In this document: piece after piece, positions 49,303 through 55,250 of the stretch
How the letters are laid out: every line of letters starts with the position of its first letter
Numbering within the stretch: the stretch's first letter is position 1
Assembly (NCBI RefSeq): GCF_027941915.1
Contig: NZ_CP116009.1
Coordinates: 3,658,001-3,722,000, forward strand
Direction of reading: 5' to 3'
DNA: 64,000 nt
Source: Ramlibacter tataouinensis
Lineage (GTDB): Bacteria > Pseudomonadota > Gammaproteobacteria > Burkholderiales > Burkholderiaceae_C
Notes under the pieces: generated by a model
What the model was told of the DNA's origin: nothing
Databases searched by the model: none
What the model saw: only the letters and a program-made list of their open reading frames with translations
Position numbers and translations under genes: made by a program

Positions 49303-51576
49303 ATGAAAGCCTTCAACCTCCAGCTCCGCTTCCTGCTTCCGTTGATCGTCGTCCTGGTCGCCGCGGCCTACCTGGCGCTGCCCGTGATGGACCGCCTCAC
49401 GCTGCGCTGGTTCGCGCGCGACATGAACATGCGCGGCAACCTGGTGGCCAACACGATGTCGGAATCGATCGCCGACGCGCTGCAGGACCCGAAGGGCCGC
49501 AAGCTGCAGGCCCTGTTCAACCGGGCGGTGGAAGACGAGCGGATGGTGGCGATCGGCTGGTGCTCGCCGTTCGGCGAGCTGATGGTGCGCACCGCCAACT
49601 TCCCGCGCGACCTGAACTGCAGCGCGGCCGAGCAGCTCAGCGCCGAGCCCGACCCGCAGCTGCGCCTGCCGAGCGGGCCGGTGTACGTCAGCTCGCACCC
49701 GGTGCGCGCGGAGTCCGGGCCGGTGGGCCAGTTGATCCTGATGCACGACCTGAGCTTCATCGACCGCCGAAGCCAGGACACGCGCCGCTACCTGATCATC
49801 CTGATCGCCGGCCTGGGCGTGATCATCGCGCTGGTCACCATGGCCGTCGCGCAGCTGAGCTGGCGCGGCTGGGTCTCGGGCACGCGGGCGCTGCTGCGCG
49901 GCGAGGGCCTGATCCGCCCGCTGGGCGGCGGCGCCCCCGAGCTGGAGCCGATCGCGGCCGAGCTGCGTTCGCGCCTGCGCGACCTGGAGGACGAATACCG
50001 CCGCAGCCAGATCCAGGAAGCCGGCTGGGACGCCCCGCGCCTGCAGGCGCTGCTGCGCAGCCAGTTGCGCGGCGACCAGGTGATCGTGGTCTCCAACCGC
50101 GAGCCCTACATCCACGAGCGCAGCCCCGACGGCAAGACCTTCGTGCGCCGGCCCGCCAGCGGGCTGGTGACGGCGGTCGAGCCGGTGATGCGGGCCTGCT
50201 CGGGCACCTGGATCGCGCACGGCAGCGGCAGCGCCGACCGCGAGGCGGTGGACCGGCACGACCGCGTGCAACTGCCCCCCGGCAAGAGCGAATACCAGCT
50301 GCGCCGCATCTGGATGACCGAGGAGGAGGAGCAGGGCTACTACTACGGCTTCGCCAACGAGGGCATGTGGCCGCTGTGCCACGTGGCGCACGTGCGGCCG
50401 GTGTTCCGCGAGTCGGACTGGGAGGCCTACCGCGCGATCAACCAGCGCTTCGCCGACGCGGTGGTGGCCGAGGCGCGCAGCGAAGACCCGATCGTGCTGG
50501 TGCAGGACTACCACTTCGCGCTGCTGCCGGCCATGGTGCGCGCCAAGCTGCCGCGCGCGACCATCCTGACCTTCTGGCACATCCCCTGGCCGAACCCGGA
50601 ATCGTTTGGCATCTGCCCGTGGCGCCAGGAGATCCTGGAAGGCCTGCTGGGCAGCACCATCATGGGCTTCCACACGCCGTTCCACTGCAAGAACTTCATC
50701 GACGCGGTCGACCGCTACCTGGAGGCGCGCATCGAGCACGAGCACTCCACCGTGTCGTACCGCGGCGAGCAGACCTTCGTCGAGGCCTACCCGATCTCGA
50801 TCGAGTGGCCCTCGGCGCTGCAGGTGCAGCAGCTGCCGTCACCGCAGGAGTGCCGGCGCCAGGTGTGCGAGGCGCTGGACATCCCCGGCTCGCACCACAT
50901 CGCCGTGGGCGTGGACCGCTTCGACTACACCAAGGGCATCCTGGAGCGCATGCATGCGGTCGAGCGCCTGCTGGAGAAGTACCCGCAGTGGCGCGACCGC
51001 TTCACCTTCGTGCAGGTGGCCGCGCCCACGCGCGCGCAGCTGGAGGAGTACCAGTCCTTCCAGCAGCGCATCACGCAACTGGCCGAGCGCATCAACAAGC
51101 GCTTCGGCAGCAAGGGGTTTGATCCGGTGCGGCTGCTGGCCCAGCACCACGAGCACGACCAGGTCAACCGCCTGTACCGCGCCGCCGACGTCTGCCTGGT
51201 CACCAGCCTGCACGACGGCATGAACCTGGTGTGCAAGGAATTCGTCGCCGCCCGCGACGACGAGCAGGGCGTGCTGATCCTCAGCCGCTTCGCCGGCGCC
51301 GCCCGCGACATGCCCGAGGCGCTGGTGGTCAACCCCTACCACGTCGAGGAAGTCGCCGATGCGCTGCACCGCGCGCTGGTCATGCCCGCCGCCGAACAGC
51401 GCGAGCGCATGTCCAATCTGCGCAGCACGGTGCGCGAGTACAACGTCTACCGCTGGGCGGGGCGCATGCTCACCGACGCGGCGAGGTGGCGGCTGCGCGA
51501 GCGCATCTCGGAGCGCGTGCAACGGCACGGGGGGCGCGGGGAGAACACGAACGGGCGGGGGCGGATGGTGGCGTAG
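49303..51576 (+). CDS. otsA: Membrane-anchored alpha,alpha-trehalose-phosphate synthase with sensor-like N-terminus
   Basis: 757 residues, far longer than the roughly 470 of ordinary OtsA. TM1 (about 8-28), a periplasmic domain of about 130 residues, TM2 (about 163-185) and a HAMP-like linker (186-235) precede a GT20 domain from about 258. That domain has VVSNREPYI, the donor-site segments [16 protein letters not shown] and [10 protein letters not shown], then [16 protein letters not shown] and [15 protein letters not shown]. It makes trehalose-6-phosphate from UDP-glucose and glucose-6-phosphate. The layout suggests activity controlled by a periplasmic (perhaps osmotic) signal. No otsB lies nearby. 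Confidence 0.9.
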
Positions 51577-52052: not shown

Positions 52053-52727
52053 ATGAACCGCCAGCGAATTCCCCGGGTCCCTAGGTGGAAACAAGCCTTG
52101 GCAATCGCGTGCATGGTCTACGCAGCCACCGTCTGGGCTTTGCCCGTGTTCATGTTGCCATTCGTGAACATCCTTCCCTTCGTCCACGAGAGGGGAGTTG
52201 TCGACCGGCTGTTCTTCTCGATGGCAGGGAGCGCATTACTTGTCGCAGTTCTGTTGGGGCTGAACGGGGGAAGGCCGCCGAAGGAAGCGTCTGTTGGTGG
52301 AACCACTCGGCAGAAGGTCCTTCACTGGATCGGGGTAATCAGCGGCCTCGCTATGTTCACGTACTCGGGCGCGGCCCTTAGTCCCAACCTGTTCGGAATC
52401 ACAACGAAGCTCCTTCCGCAACAAACCTACACCGCACGAGTTTCCATTGACTCAGCGGAGTACTACGGCTCGCGGTACAAGTCTGTGGCCTTGGAGTACC
52501 GGGACGACATCACGAGAGAACCTCGCCACCTCGTGATTTCGAAGCGCCTCTTTGATTACCCTCACCTCAAGTCCGGCGATGTAGTTGAACTGCGCGGACG
52601 AAGGACTGTCCTTGGGGACTATGTGGACGGGCTCTCGCTTCGGCAGAGGGCTAACAGGTCGATCGACGCGGACGTCCTATCGGCGGGCTCCGCCCGCCTT
52701 CTGGCCGCCGGTCATCTCCGACGTTAG
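52053..52727 (+). CDS. Cassette 1: membrane protein with soluble C-terminal domain, 224 aa
   Basis: Three hydrophobic segments (about 13-40, VYAATVWALPVFMLPFVNIL; about 53-70, FFSMAGSALLVAVLLGL; about 90-110, VLHWIGVISGLAMFTYSG). A beta-rich domain follows (YTARVSIDSAEYYGSRYKSV) and the LKSGDVVELRGRRTVLGDYV segment near 180-200. No known family is recognised. The start is 8 bases after the GTTAGCC core. Oddly, the frame does not stop at the R'' box but runs through the entire attC site and ends in the R' TAG, so the last 25 residues are attC-encoded. Confidence 0.65.
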   Translation: MNRQRIPRVPRWKQALAIACMVYAATVWALPVFMLPFVNILPFVHERGVVDRLFFSMAGSALLVAVLLGLNGGRPPKEASVGGTTRQKVLHWIGVISGLAMFTYSGAALSPNLFGITTKLLPQQTYTARVSIDSAEYYGSRYKSVALEYRDDITREPRHLVISKRLFDYPHLKSGDVVELRGRRTVLGDYVDGLSLRQRANRSIDADVLSAGSARLLAAGHLRR

Positions 52728-52729
52728 AC
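52649..52729 (+). other. attC site 1 (81 bp)
   Basis: R'' GGCTAAC at 52649-52655 and R' GTTAGAC at 52723-52729, complementary except one base. A perfect central hairpin GGCGGGC-TCC-GCCCGCC and the half-site AGGTCGATCGA lie between. Length and layout fit a folded single-strand attC recombination site. Confidence 0.82.
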
Positions 52730-52744
52730 ATCAGAGGGCCACGT

Positions 52745-53209
52745 ATGGACATCGCATCGGTTACTGCGGCTCTGGGCAGCATCAAGACTGCGACAGACAT
52801 CGCGAAGTTCATTCGCGAGAGCGATCTGTCAATCGAAAAGGCGGAGTTGAAGCTGAAGCTCGCGGACCTGATGAACGCGCTTGCGGATGCGAGGATCGAA
52901 GTAGCGGAGATTCAGCAGGCCGCGGCCGAAGCTGAAAGCCAGATCAAAGACTTGAAGACACAACTTGCCATTCGCGCAAAGGTGAAGTGGGAAGAGCCTC
53001 TCTACTGGCTCGAAACCGAGTCGGGCCGCGACGGGCCCTTCTGCCAGCGTTGCTATGACACAGAGGAAAAGCTGGTGCGACTCCAGGGCAGCGGGGACGG
53101 GCACTACTCGTGCCGCGCGTGCAGGTGCGGCTACACCACCCCAGCTGCCCGTGCCCGAGAGGAGGCCGCGATGCGCGAGCACCAAGCACGCGGATCGGAC
53201 TACTTCTGA
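52745..53209 (+). CDS. Cassette 2: coiled-coil plus zinc-ribbon protein, 154 aa
   Basis: The N-terminal 85 residues form a long coiled coil (LIEKAELKLK-type heptads, EIQQAAAEAESQIKDLKTQL). The C-terminus has a four-Cys zinc ribbon, CQRCYDTEEKLVRLQ with CRACRCGYTTP, ending in a charged tail. It is cytoplasmic. Such coiled-coil/zinc-ribbon proteins recur in cassette arrays and near prophages, but no function is known to me. The ATG lies 15 bases after the R' core of attC site 1; the stop is one base before the next R''. Confidence 0.65.
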   Translation: MDIASVTAALGSIKTATDIAKFIRESDLSIEKAELKLKLADLMNALADARIEVAEIQQAAAEAESQIKDLKTQLAIRAKVKWEEPLYWLETESGRDGPFCQRCYDTEEKLVRLQGSGDGHYSCRACRCGYTTPAARAREEAAMREHQARGSDYF

Positions 53210-53210
53210 T

Positions 53211-53291
53211 GTCTAACATGGCAGTCGACACGGACGTACTCGCGGCACGCTGTCGCGTGCCTATGGTCCGCCGGTCACTTCTACGTTAGAC
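53211..53291 (+). other. attC site 2 (81 bp)
   Basis: R'' GTCTAAC (53211-53217) and R' GTTAGAC (53285-53291) are exact reverse complements. The centre holds the perfect hairpin GGCACGC-TGTC-GCGTGCC. The right half CCGCCGGTCA is shared with attC site 1. This is the best attC in the window. Confidence 0.88.
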
Positions 53292-53292
53292 C

Positions 53293-53712
53293 ATGAGTGA
53301 CGGCGGTTCGTATTCGACAGCAGCAGGAGAGCACTTGGTGCTCGGACAGCTGTTGCGTCTCGGTGTGAGTGCGTATCTCGCTCAAGGTCCCACTCAAAAA
53401 GGGTGGGACATCATTCTCAAGCGTGGTGACGAACTGAAGACCGTTCAAGTAAAGACCATTAGCTGGCCGAAGGAGAAGGCTGTAAACGGCAAGCTCACCT
53501 CTGGCTTCGACTACCTGGTCGTGGTTCTTCTTGACCGGGACAAGACCCACCCGAGGTACCTGGTGTTCGCCGCACATGAAGTCGAGCAGTTCCTCTCGAA
53601 AGAAAATCCAGAACGCCAGACCAAAGCACGGACCCTTACCGTCAGTAATCACAAGCTGGAGCCGGACGGTTCCTTGCAAAAGTATGAGAACAATTGGCGG
53701 GTCATGGTCTAA
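53293..53712 (+). CDS. Cassette 3: PD-(D/E)xK-like nuclease, 139 aa
   Basis: A short restriction-like fold: Glu in AAGEHLVLGQLLRLGV, Asp in KGWDIILKRGD, then the QVK version of ExK in LKTVQVKTISWP, followed by FDYLVVVLLDRD and a C-terminal helix. This E-D-QxK pattern is found in Hjc/resolvase-like and predicted restriction endonucleases. It would cut DNA; an anti-phage role is inferred from the cassette setting. The ATG starts two bases after the R' core, and the TAA is inside the next R'' (GTCTAAC), the classic cassette layout. Confidence 0.7.
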   Translation: MSDGGSYSTAAGEHLVLGQLLRLGVSAYLAQGPTQKGWDIILKRGDELKTVQVKTISWPKEKAVNGKLTSGFDYLVVVLLDRDKTHPRYLVFAAHEVEQFLSKENPERQTKARTLTVSNHKLEPDGSLQKYENNWRVMV

Positions 53713-53751
53713 CAGGTCGTTCGATACGGGCGGGCAACGCAGACATTAGGC
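53707..53751 (+). other. attC site 3, shortened (45 bp)
   Basis: R'' GTCTAAC (53707-53713) followed by AGGTCGTTCGA, as in attC site 1, and R' ATTAGGC (53745-53751) with a G-to-A first base. At 45 bases it is shorter than ordinary attC sites and the right half-site is missing, so it has probably suffered a deletion. Confidence 0.65.
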
Positions 53752-53770
53752 CGCACAGGAAAGATTCAGC

Positions 53771-54373
53771 TTGATCATCGAGTGCTCAAATTGTCGTCAG
53801 TACGTGGACGCGCGAGAGACCGGGTCGTACTGGCGTCACTTCGATGGACGGGAGCCGTCCCGGCGCTACACCCTGCTTGCTTGCGCTCAATGCCAGGAGC
53901 CAATCCTCGTCGGTCAAACGAACATCGGAAACATGGCAGAGGGTGACAAGTGGGATACGCCCTTCGTCGTCCATCCTCAGGGTGATATCCGTGTCAATCC
54001 GAGCGCACCCAGCGAAATCCGCGCCGCTTTTGAGGAAGCCTGCACGTGCTATCGCACGCAGGCGTACACCGCCTCAGCCATTATGTGCCGCAAGACACTC
54101 GAAGGCGTCTGTGCCGCTCATGGGGTAGAGGAGCGAAATCTCAGCGCGTCATTGCGGAAGATGAAGGAACTGACCCTCATCGACGATCGATTGTTTGAGT
54201 GGTCGGATGCGCTGCGTGTCGTCGGCAACGAAGCCGCGCATGGTGTTCGCGTCGCAATCTCGCAGCCAGACGCAAAGGACGCGATCGAGTTCACGAACGC
54301 CATCCTGGACTACCTCTTCTCGTATCGGGACCGTTTCGAACAATTCAAGAAGCGTCGCGGCAATGCGGCCTAA
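53771..54373 (+). CDS. Cassette 4: zinc-finger DUF4145/HEPN-like protein, 200 aa
   Basis: Two CxxC pairs near the N-terminus (IIECSNCRQYV and LACAQCQEPIL) form a zinc ribbon. Residues 85-190 match DUF4145: YTASAIMCRKTLEGVCAAHG, then DALRVVGNEAAHGVRV, whose R-x3-N-x3-H pattern is HEPN-like. HEPN proteins are often RNases or RNA-binding members of defence and toxin systems. The start is TTG 53771 with AGGAAAG upstream; no ATG lies between it and the zinc ribbon. The TAA falls in the R'' box GCCTAAC. Confidence 0.7.
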   Translation: MIIECSNCRQYVDARETGSYWRHFDGREPSRRYTLLACAQCQEPILVGQTNIGNMAEGDKWDTPFVVHPQGDIRVNPSAPSEIRAAFEEACTCYRTQAYTASAIMCRKTLEGVCAAHGVEERNLSASLRKMKELTLIDDRLFEWSDALRVVGNEAAHGVRVAISQPDAKDAIEFTNAILDYLFSYRDRFEQFKKRRGNAA

Positions 54374-54440
54374 CCTCGTTCTGCCCGACGTGCTGCAGAG
54401 CTTCCTCCGCTCCCGCAATCTGGTAAACATCAACCTAGGC
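54368..54440 (+). other. attC site 4, degenerate (about 73 bp)
   Basis: R'' GCCTAAC overlaps the cassette 4 stop. The right core reads AACCTAGGCC where AACGTTAGGCC is expected, i.e. one base lost and one changed. No strong central hairpin is visible. It is likely a decayed site. Confidence 0.5.
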
Positions 54441-54465
54441 CTGGAACCACTCAAGAGCAAGCGCA

Positions 54466-54849
54466 ATGCACCTCGTAACGCGTTATCGAATCACTGATGC
54501 GACTGCGGCGGCTGAAGTTCGGTCACTTCCGGCTCTTTCAGAGATTCCCTACTTTATGCGTCACCACCGTGGTCGCCTGCGCTACATCGATGACATGGTC
54601 GCCATGGCTTCAAACCGCGCTCACGCGCACCCTACATTTGTCCGACTTAGCGCATTCCACCGACACGAAACGACATACGCAGCTATCGACGCACTTGCGC
54701 CACCCTTGGCAGAGTTCTTCATACATTCGGACATTCTGCCGGTGCTGGAACCCATTTTTTTGCGCTACAGGGATCGTCTTGAAGAACTATCGCCGCGGCT
54801 TTATCGGCAGTTCGCCGAGCGTGGAATACTGATTCCGAGAGAGGTCTAA
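54466..54849 (+). CDS. Cassette 5, first gene: unknown protein, 127 aa
   Basis: No family recognised. It has a helical, moderately basic N-terminal half (RSLPALSEIPYFMRHHRGRL) and a His-rich patch (AFHRHETTYAAIDALAPPLA), ending RDRLEELSPRLYRQFAERGI. No membrane segment. An in-frame ATG at 54556 is an alternative start. The stop is two bases before the next gene's GTG, so the two genes form one cassette and are co-translated. No nucleotidyltransferase (MNT) motif is present. Confidence 0.55.
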   Translation: MHLVTRYRITDATAAAEVRSLPALSEIPYFMRHHRGRLRYIDDMVAMASNRAHAHPTFVRLSAFHRHETTYAAIDALAPPLAEFFIHSDILPVLEPIFLRYRDRLEELSPRLYRQFAERGILIPREV

Positions 54850-54851
54850 AG

Positions 54852-55250
54852 GTGAAGACGCGGTTTATTCGTGTTGCGGAGCGCTCAACTGAGGCCGGAG
54901 ACGCAGCGCTCTCGGCCGGAACTCATGAGAAGGCGAGCTTTCTCGCGTACCACGCCTTCGAGTCGTCCGGATCTGCGCTCGGAGTGCACGTCGGCTTCGA
55001 TATGGGAAAGACTGTGTCGCATCCGACAAAGATCAAGCGCTTCCAGCATGCGGCGAAGCAGGTTGGAATATCAAAACAAGTCGCCCTGTTGGCCGTGCGG
55101 CTGGCGCCCATGCGAAACAGGTTCCTTTATCCCGAGGAACTTCCAGATGGGAGCATCATCGCGCCAGAGGACCAGATCACGCCCGCAAAAGCGGCACAGT
55201 TGGTGAAGGAGGTGAAGCACATGGTGCAAGCAGTTAAAACCAAGCTGTGA
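54852..55250 (+). CDS. Cassette 5, second gene: HEPN-like protein, 132 aa
   Basis: The helical layout matches HEPN domains: ERSTEAGDAALSAGTHEKAS, then FLAYHAFESSGSALGVHVG, HPTKIKRFQHAAKQ, the RNRFLYPEE turn and a last helix (ITPAKAAQLVKEVKHMVQAV). The catalytic Rx4-6H of RNase HEPNs is not clear (RNRFLYP lacks His), so a non-nuclease role is possible. It starts at GTG 54852 with GAGAGAGG upstream. The pair with the preceding gene has the size and spacing of a toxin-antitoxin-like module. Confidence 0.6.
   Translation: MKTRFIRVAERSTEAGDAALSAGTHEKASFLAYHAFESSGSALGVHVGFDMGKTVSHPTKIKRFQHAAKQVGISKQVALLAVRLAPMRNRFLYPEELPDGSIIAPEDQITPAKAAQLVKEVKHMVQAVKTKL

Follow-up and report, generated by a model that had tools for sequence, protein, structure and literature searches.

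The window (the whole 64,000-nucleotide stretch of DNA that was analysed) encodes a two-TM sensor and a GT20 trehalose-6-phosphate (T6P) synthase domain on one chain, as the earlier note had claimed, and this is borne out by a predicted Cache fold, two TMs, an invariant cysteine pair, an intact active site and conservation of the fusion. Judged by its sequence conservation, this is a conserved receptor-enzyme architecture, and we found no published description of it in the literature searched, which was covered mostly through titles and abstract openings and included few subscription papers. With a probability of about 60%, we read the protein as a T6P synthase located at the inner membrane that carries a built-in receptor and is under periplasmic control. 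Its features are listed in Table 1.

Table 1. Features of the sensor-synthase gene in window coordinates, with the evidence for each.
Feature	Coordinates	Strand	Evidence
Whole ORF, membrane-sensor trehalose-6-phosphate synthase, 757 aa + stop	49303..51576 (ATG to stop, stop included)	+	ORF call, full-length relatives
TM1 core, approximately residues 10-29	49330..49389	+	hydropathy; helix 2-59 in AlphaFold2 model; N-terminus presumably inside
Periplasmic single Cache/PDC-type sensor domain (predicted), residues 30-160	49390..49782	+	AlphaFold2 block pLDDT 89-97 (residues 31-150); VIA-align matches CitA, WalK/YycG, DcuS, CusS
Cys87 codon, first Cys of invariant pair	49561..49563	+	85/85 rows (82 distinct proteins)
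Cys106 codon, second Cys of invariant pair, putative disulfide	49618..49620	+	85/85 rows
TM2, approximately residues 161-185	49783..49857	+	hydropathy; helix 151-198 in model
Cytoplasmic HAMP-like linker, residues 186-256: end of helix 151-198, loop, helices 212-237 and 244-255	49858..50070	+	AlphaFold2 model; loop pLDDT <50
GT20 trehalose-6-phosphate synthase domain, residues 259-726	50077..51480	+	Pfam; active-site residues; fold Z 45.8 to 5jio

Hydropathy analysis revealed two hydrophobic segments in the window protein (windows over residues 1-34 and 160-187) and none in its GT20 half, and across the full-length relatives exactly two TMs were called in 84/85 rows, three in the remaining one and a C-terminal TM in 0/85; a membrane topology with the GT20 domain in the cytoplasm would fit this pattern. 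These rows were selected heuristically from 101 loci with more than 50% identity as full-length and free of internal stops, leaving out 16 loci (12 whose extended match was interrupted by a stop and 4 that were too short), and they comprise 82 distinct proteins, the window’s own counted, with three rows being second copies of a genome from two collections. A start far upstream is impossible because the stop-to-stop frame is only 764 aa, against 757 aa for the ORF. A start inside the GT20 domain, which the earlier note had named as a finding that would undo its claim, is excluded, as is a chance or artefactual fusion, because the N-terminal 255 residues align in register in all 85 rows (82 distinct proteins) and the periplasmic part gave dN/dS values under 1 in each of five same-genus pairs (about 0.34, 0.52, 0.32, 0.28 and 0.81; Nei-Gojobori). 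Since dN/dS of the GT20 part was lower still in every one of these pairs (Nei-Gojobori), the periplasmic part appears to be under selection while evolving faster than the enzyme. On the strength of these alignments, the sensor-bearing N-terminal half of the ORF is genuine.

The earlier note had likened the N-terminal 255 residues to the input half of a chemoreceptor or histidine kinase, and the predicted Cache fold, the two TMs and the cysteine pair support that likeness. An AlphaFold2 model of residues 1-256 built from 53 sequences (pLDDT 85) starts with one long and one short helix, which are followed by a PAS-like sheet, another long helix and finally a pair of helices; the underlying alignment of N-termini comprised the window protein and 52 of 59 eligible ATG-start loci. 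VIA-align matched this model to CitA (8biy, Z 10.8, 108 residues, 2.8 A), YycG (5is1, Z 10.5) and DcuS (3by8, Z 10.1), these three spanning 108-123 residues, and also to WalK (Z 10.3), LuxQ (Z 10.2) and CusS (Z 9.5). The top VIA-align row, a WalK-YycH integrative model with Z 11.6, was set aside for its rmsd of 15.7, and the same model was the single match of Foldseek alone at E ≤0.001. Searching the PDB with a sequence profile of the N-terminus returned 0 matches, and the Cache call therefore rests on the predicted fold together with sub-threshold Pfam matches. The curated Pfam Cache cut-off was never reached, all Cache, PAS or CHASE4 matches lying below threshold: with E up to 1, CHASE4 appeared in 4/53 N-termini, and dCache_1 appeared in one distant relative (8.2e-06, 26.0 bits against a cut-off of 45). 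The Pfam family matched by most N-termini at E up to 1 (17/53) was Adeno_E3B, an unrelated-looking TM family. For residues 30-160 the prediction is thus a single Cache/PDC sensor fold, and by hydropathy this domain occupies the whole extracytoplasmic stretch between the two predicted TMs.

The periplasmic part holds exactly two cysteines within residues 30-160 in 85/85 rows. The pair is present in all 85 rows and in 4/4 alpha-type relatives, and both cysteines are missing in 9/9 members of the other Cache branch, a distribution in which the two residues evidently come and go together. Cys87 and Cys106 may form a disulfide that locks the Cache domain. They are among 15 invariant columns in the alignment of 53 N-termini, and R80, G125 and D149 of the periplasmic part are likewise invariant in the alignments of 53 and 51 sequences.

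The HAMP-like linker proposed in the earlier note held up in its position and layout after TM2 but not as HAMP homology. No Pfam match to HAMP (PF00672) was found in the window protein; HAMP was absent among the 25 listed of 26 Pfam families matched by the 53 N-termini at E up to 1, and it appeared in 1/10 distant relatives scanned, at 13.3 bits against a cut-off of 25. Aligning the linker with HAMP profiles from the same genome (hhalign) placed it correctly after TM2 with weak probabilities of 1.7% and 3.8% (E 0.03 and 0.011). HAMP as a proven domain was rejected on these weak Pfam and hhalign results. Elsewhere in the window’s genome (G000:C1:162451-165369, minus strand), an open frame of 2244 aa with 11 consecutive HAMP matches encodes a poly-HAMP protein.

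The putative membrane-bound synthases occur in three forms. Form (a), with a Cache domain and the cysteine pair, comprises 80 loci that by record name belong to Betaproteobacteria (52), Desulfuromonadia (9), no stated class (8) and six other classes (11), although many of these records are metagenome-derived and single odd names may be binning errors; the four alpha-type relatives also belong to this form. Form (b), with a Cache domain and no cysteines, was found in 9 genomes of the window’s class (L146-L154), and its Cache branch is homologous to that of form (a) over 241 columns (probability 97.9%). Form (c) consists of one hydrophobic helix and no periplasmic domain ahead of a GT20 half that is still 54-59% identical, and comprises 9 genomes of one family (L158, L159, L121-L129; G488 and G533 among them), with hydropathy computed for two. 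Form (c) is a natural sensor-less version of the fusion enzyme. As a separate observation, the linker of L146-L154 is more HAMP-like (ERPL...), and these loci have GH15 nearby in 6/9 cases and an otsB-like match in 9/9 (tblastn).

In a first tree of 83 GT20 rows (quick method, no bootstrap; two of its 11 one-TM rows duplicate genomes already included), a branch with support 100 separated forms (a)-(c) and ot_L164 from the remaining rows. The row ot_L164 lies within the membrane clade at the end of a very long branch, has no evident TM and is of unsure placement. A second tree, with haloarchaeal and Deinococcus enzymes added and ot_L164, five other long rows and seven thinned rows removed, again recovered the 50 membrane rows as one group (support 98) adjoined by those added unfused enzymes, and a single origin holds for the rows kept in that tree. 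By these phylogenies, the fusion proteins are a GT20 clade apart from canonical OtsA. Because form (c) is nested within this clade, its sensor was most simply lost, a polarity of gain and loss that depends on the root of trees that are themselves unrooted.

Within the window’s class, a GT20 match was present in at least 56/370 genomes and extended into the N-terminal half in at least 18 (the window’s genome included), both being lower bounds because scoring was limited to two candidates per genome. A phylum sample contained a GT20 match in 143/397 genomes, with the two-TM form in at least 5 (the window’s genome included) and the one-TM form in at least 9. Burkholderiales, the order within which the earlier note had proposed to look for the fusion, is too narrow a scope; as far as the sequence records go, the pairing of sensor and GT20 is old and widespread. 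Several Ramlibacter are among the named relatives of the window protein. The fusion was found in 19 of 37 same-genus genomes (as a fragment in one and split over two frames in another) and was not found in the other 18, near-complete G030, G033 and G035 among them; one genome of this set shares its protein with Caenimonas koreensis (L019, L077). A canonical GT20 accompanies the fusion in 18/19 of these fusion-bearing genomes, G005 being the exception. Of 16 genomes of unstated completeness that were chosen because they carry the fusion, 12 yielded a single PF00982 gene, namely the fusion itself, and many environmental bacteria may therefore have it as their main T6P synthase.

The main rival to periplasmic control is that the N-terminus serves chiefly as a membrane anchor or dimerisation device at the inner membrane, with a Cache fold that is structural or vestigial and does not signal. 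Form (c) keeps this account alive, since there a single helix replaces the Cache part and the GT20 half is retained. We nonetheless consider anchoring alone less likely than periplasmic control, because an invariant cysteine pair, the invariant R80, G125 and D149, a predicted sensor fold and 130 conserved periplasmic residues are not needed for a mere anchor.

The catalytic half is a GT20 enzyme whose active site is, at the level of its residues, complete. GT20 is the sole family above its Pfam cut-off in the window protein (PF00982, E 7.8e-128, 427.6 bits against a cut-off of 32.5), and the full-protein model (51 sequences, pLDDT 87) superimposes on the T6P synthase 5jio (Z 45.8; 456 residues, 2.2 A). 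The 11 positions ascribed to the active site of E. coli OtsA are identical in 85/85 rows (P0001 included) and in 9/9, 4/4 and 2/2 rows of the smaller sets. Two further positions near the active site deviate, G to S286 (so that GG reads SG) and G to A305, and a nearby WFGWSG stretch reads WIAHGSG. Among 23 matched PDB sequences, none aligned upstream of query residue 256 in its best stretch. The protein missed the NCBIfam cut-off of the OtsA equivalog TIGR02400 (443.9 bits against 564.85), in agreement with a separate GT20 clade, and also that of the bifunctional TPS/TPP model (493.2 against 634). These shortfalls, together with the SG and WIAHGSG substitutions, could be taken to mean that a different GT20 enzyme stands under sensor control, with an acceptor and product that are a related sugar phosphate and not glucose-6-phosphate and T6P. 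We regard this as improbable, because the glucosylglycerol-phosphate synthase model scores lowest of all (310.8 bits) and the neighbours are OtsB (21/21 scanned) and a trehalase-like GH15; T6P is the product that the sequence strongly suggests.

The earlier note had stressed that no otsB adjoins the gene, which is true of the window, where a search rejected a hidden otsB close by, but not of the family or of the genome as a whole. The window’s genome, a single contig of 4.47 Mb, has a single otsB at a distance of 1.17 Mb from the fusion, which is part of a canonical otsB-GH15-otsA cassette (L115) whose OtsA is 33% identical to the fusion protein. Among loci with at least 2.5 kb on each side, otsB was present in 50/59, always on the same strand and within 300 bp in 46, and a trehalase-like GH15 was present in 34/59. 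OtsB queries were trimmed at the DxDG motif to guard against out-of-frame overlap with the 3' end of the fusion, which left the 50/59 unchanged and shifted the count over all loci from 66/80 to 65/80. These queries came largely from the same loci; the identity of OtsB rests on PF02358 in 21/21 proteins scanned, of 55 in the cluster; the GH15 neighbours carried PF00723 and TREH_N in 3/3 scanned. Emphasis on the absent otsB is thus misleading, as most examined relatives have otsB next door.

The nine well-flanked loci without otsB are L032, L033, L048, L052 and L057 (Ramlibacter or close), L065, L077 (Caenimonas), L080 and L098, and otsB was found within 1.5 kb downstream in 0/18 other same-genus loci, some of whose genomes overlap with those nine. 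All 37 same-genus genomes searched (completeness at least 95%) nevertheless contain otsB. The Ramlibacter fusion gene is an orphan, usually a second synthase, and must use OtsB encoded elsewhere. A second, lower-scoring otsB was seen in five of these genomes (G009, G011, G015, G811 and G819), and the one in G009 shares a contig with the fusion gene, approximately 0.29 Mb away. In L078, L088, L096, L102 and L106, otsB and GH15 are apparently joined in one frame of approximately 830-870 aa directly downstream of the sensor-synthase, with the GH15 part found by Pfam (two scanned) and the OtsB part by tblastn. Upstream of the window gene lie a heptosyltransferase (PF01075), a Kdo transferase (PF04413) and a class II aldolase (PF00596), none of them trehalose-related, and a DUF4145 protein at window positions 53771-54373 (plus strand), among small ORFs at approximately 52053-55250, is of a size unlike the upstream envelope-polysaccharide genes.

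No neighbour cluster besides OtsB and GH15 exceeds 9/82 loci, and no constant partner gene is therefore seen nearby. This absence, the retained active-site residues and the otsB that adjoins in most relatives examined make inside-out signalling the least probable account, namely that GT20 reports sugar-phosphate or UDP-sugar status and a periplasmic output recruits a partner as in LapD, even though the fold recurs in a periplasmic output domain of LapD type (4u64, Z 8.8) and Arthrobacter OtsA has a second role linked to T6P according to its abstract (PMC5685639).

Returning to periplasmic control, the architecture and its conservation suggest that the periplasmic sensor regulates GT20 activity, and the direct periplasmic control of trehalose synthesis put forward in the earlier note is plausible. 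A periplasmic signal, for which a small ligand, pH, redox or envelope state are candidates, would change the conformation of the Cache domain; this change would move TM2 and the HAMP-like linker, whose movement would raise or lower T6P synthesis by the cytoplasmic GT20, and OtsB would then convert T6P to trehalose. Sensing is not essential to the enzyme in the one-TM lineage, because the catalytic domain is kept there without a periplasmic domain. We give even odds to the broader proposal that the whole GT20 subfamily is a one-component receptor-enzyme in which a Cache signal sets the rate of osmolyte synthesis without a kinase, second messenger or transcription step, its spread taking in Pseudomonadota and Desulfuromonadia and, if the names of records that are in part of metagenomic origin are followed, Nitrospira, Gemmatimonadetes, Acidobacteria and Bdellovibrionota. 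Bacterial trehalose synthesis is usually discussed as being under the control of gene expression and metabolite allostery; if sensory control is true, an external signal would act directly on the trehalose-making enzyme. Ready-made handles on the sensing question are the cysteine pair, the pocket of the Cache domain and the one-TM version that occurs naturally.

Compared with known systems, the fusion resembles OtsA of E. coli and its mycobacterial counterpart (5jio) in its GT-B fold, its 11 active-site positions and, in most fusion relatives examined, its otsB linkage, and differs in its separate clade, its score below the OtsA equivalog cut-off and an N-terminal half upstream of residue 256 that none of the 23 matched PDB sequences reaches. 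GSU2337 of Geobacter sulfurreducens is annotated as a T6P synthase beside the T6P phosphatase GSU2336 and is said to be ‘containing a domain’ with 37% identity to its M. tuberculosis counterpart (PMC2700814); because of that wording and the Geobacter relatives L061, L063 and L064, it is probably a member of the fusion family, and the passage that describes it is silent on the N-terminal half (PMC2700814). Arthrobacter OtsA, an osmotic stress sensor, likewise ties a trehalose synthase to stress sensing, but it works through the T6P level and self-assembly, and its abstract mentions no membrane sensor domain (PMC5685639). The input half, a predicted TM-Cache-TM-linker fold, is like that of CitA/DcuS/WalK-type sensor histidine kinases, whereas the output is a biosynthetic glycosyltransferase and not a kinase, cyclase or chemotaxis domain. 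The outputs given in the relevant part of a Cache survey are MCP, HK, GGDEF/EAL/HD, phosphatase, cyclase, STK, TF and ion channel, that is, signalling outputs only, bar one family viewed as a cut-off sensor (PMC4822843). The fusion chain differs from those Cache signalling proteins in having no known signalling output domain, and is thus a counter-example to the statement there that Cache domains occur with signalling outputs (PMC4822843); if the one-component reading is true, the protective metabolite would itself be the output of this Cache receptor.
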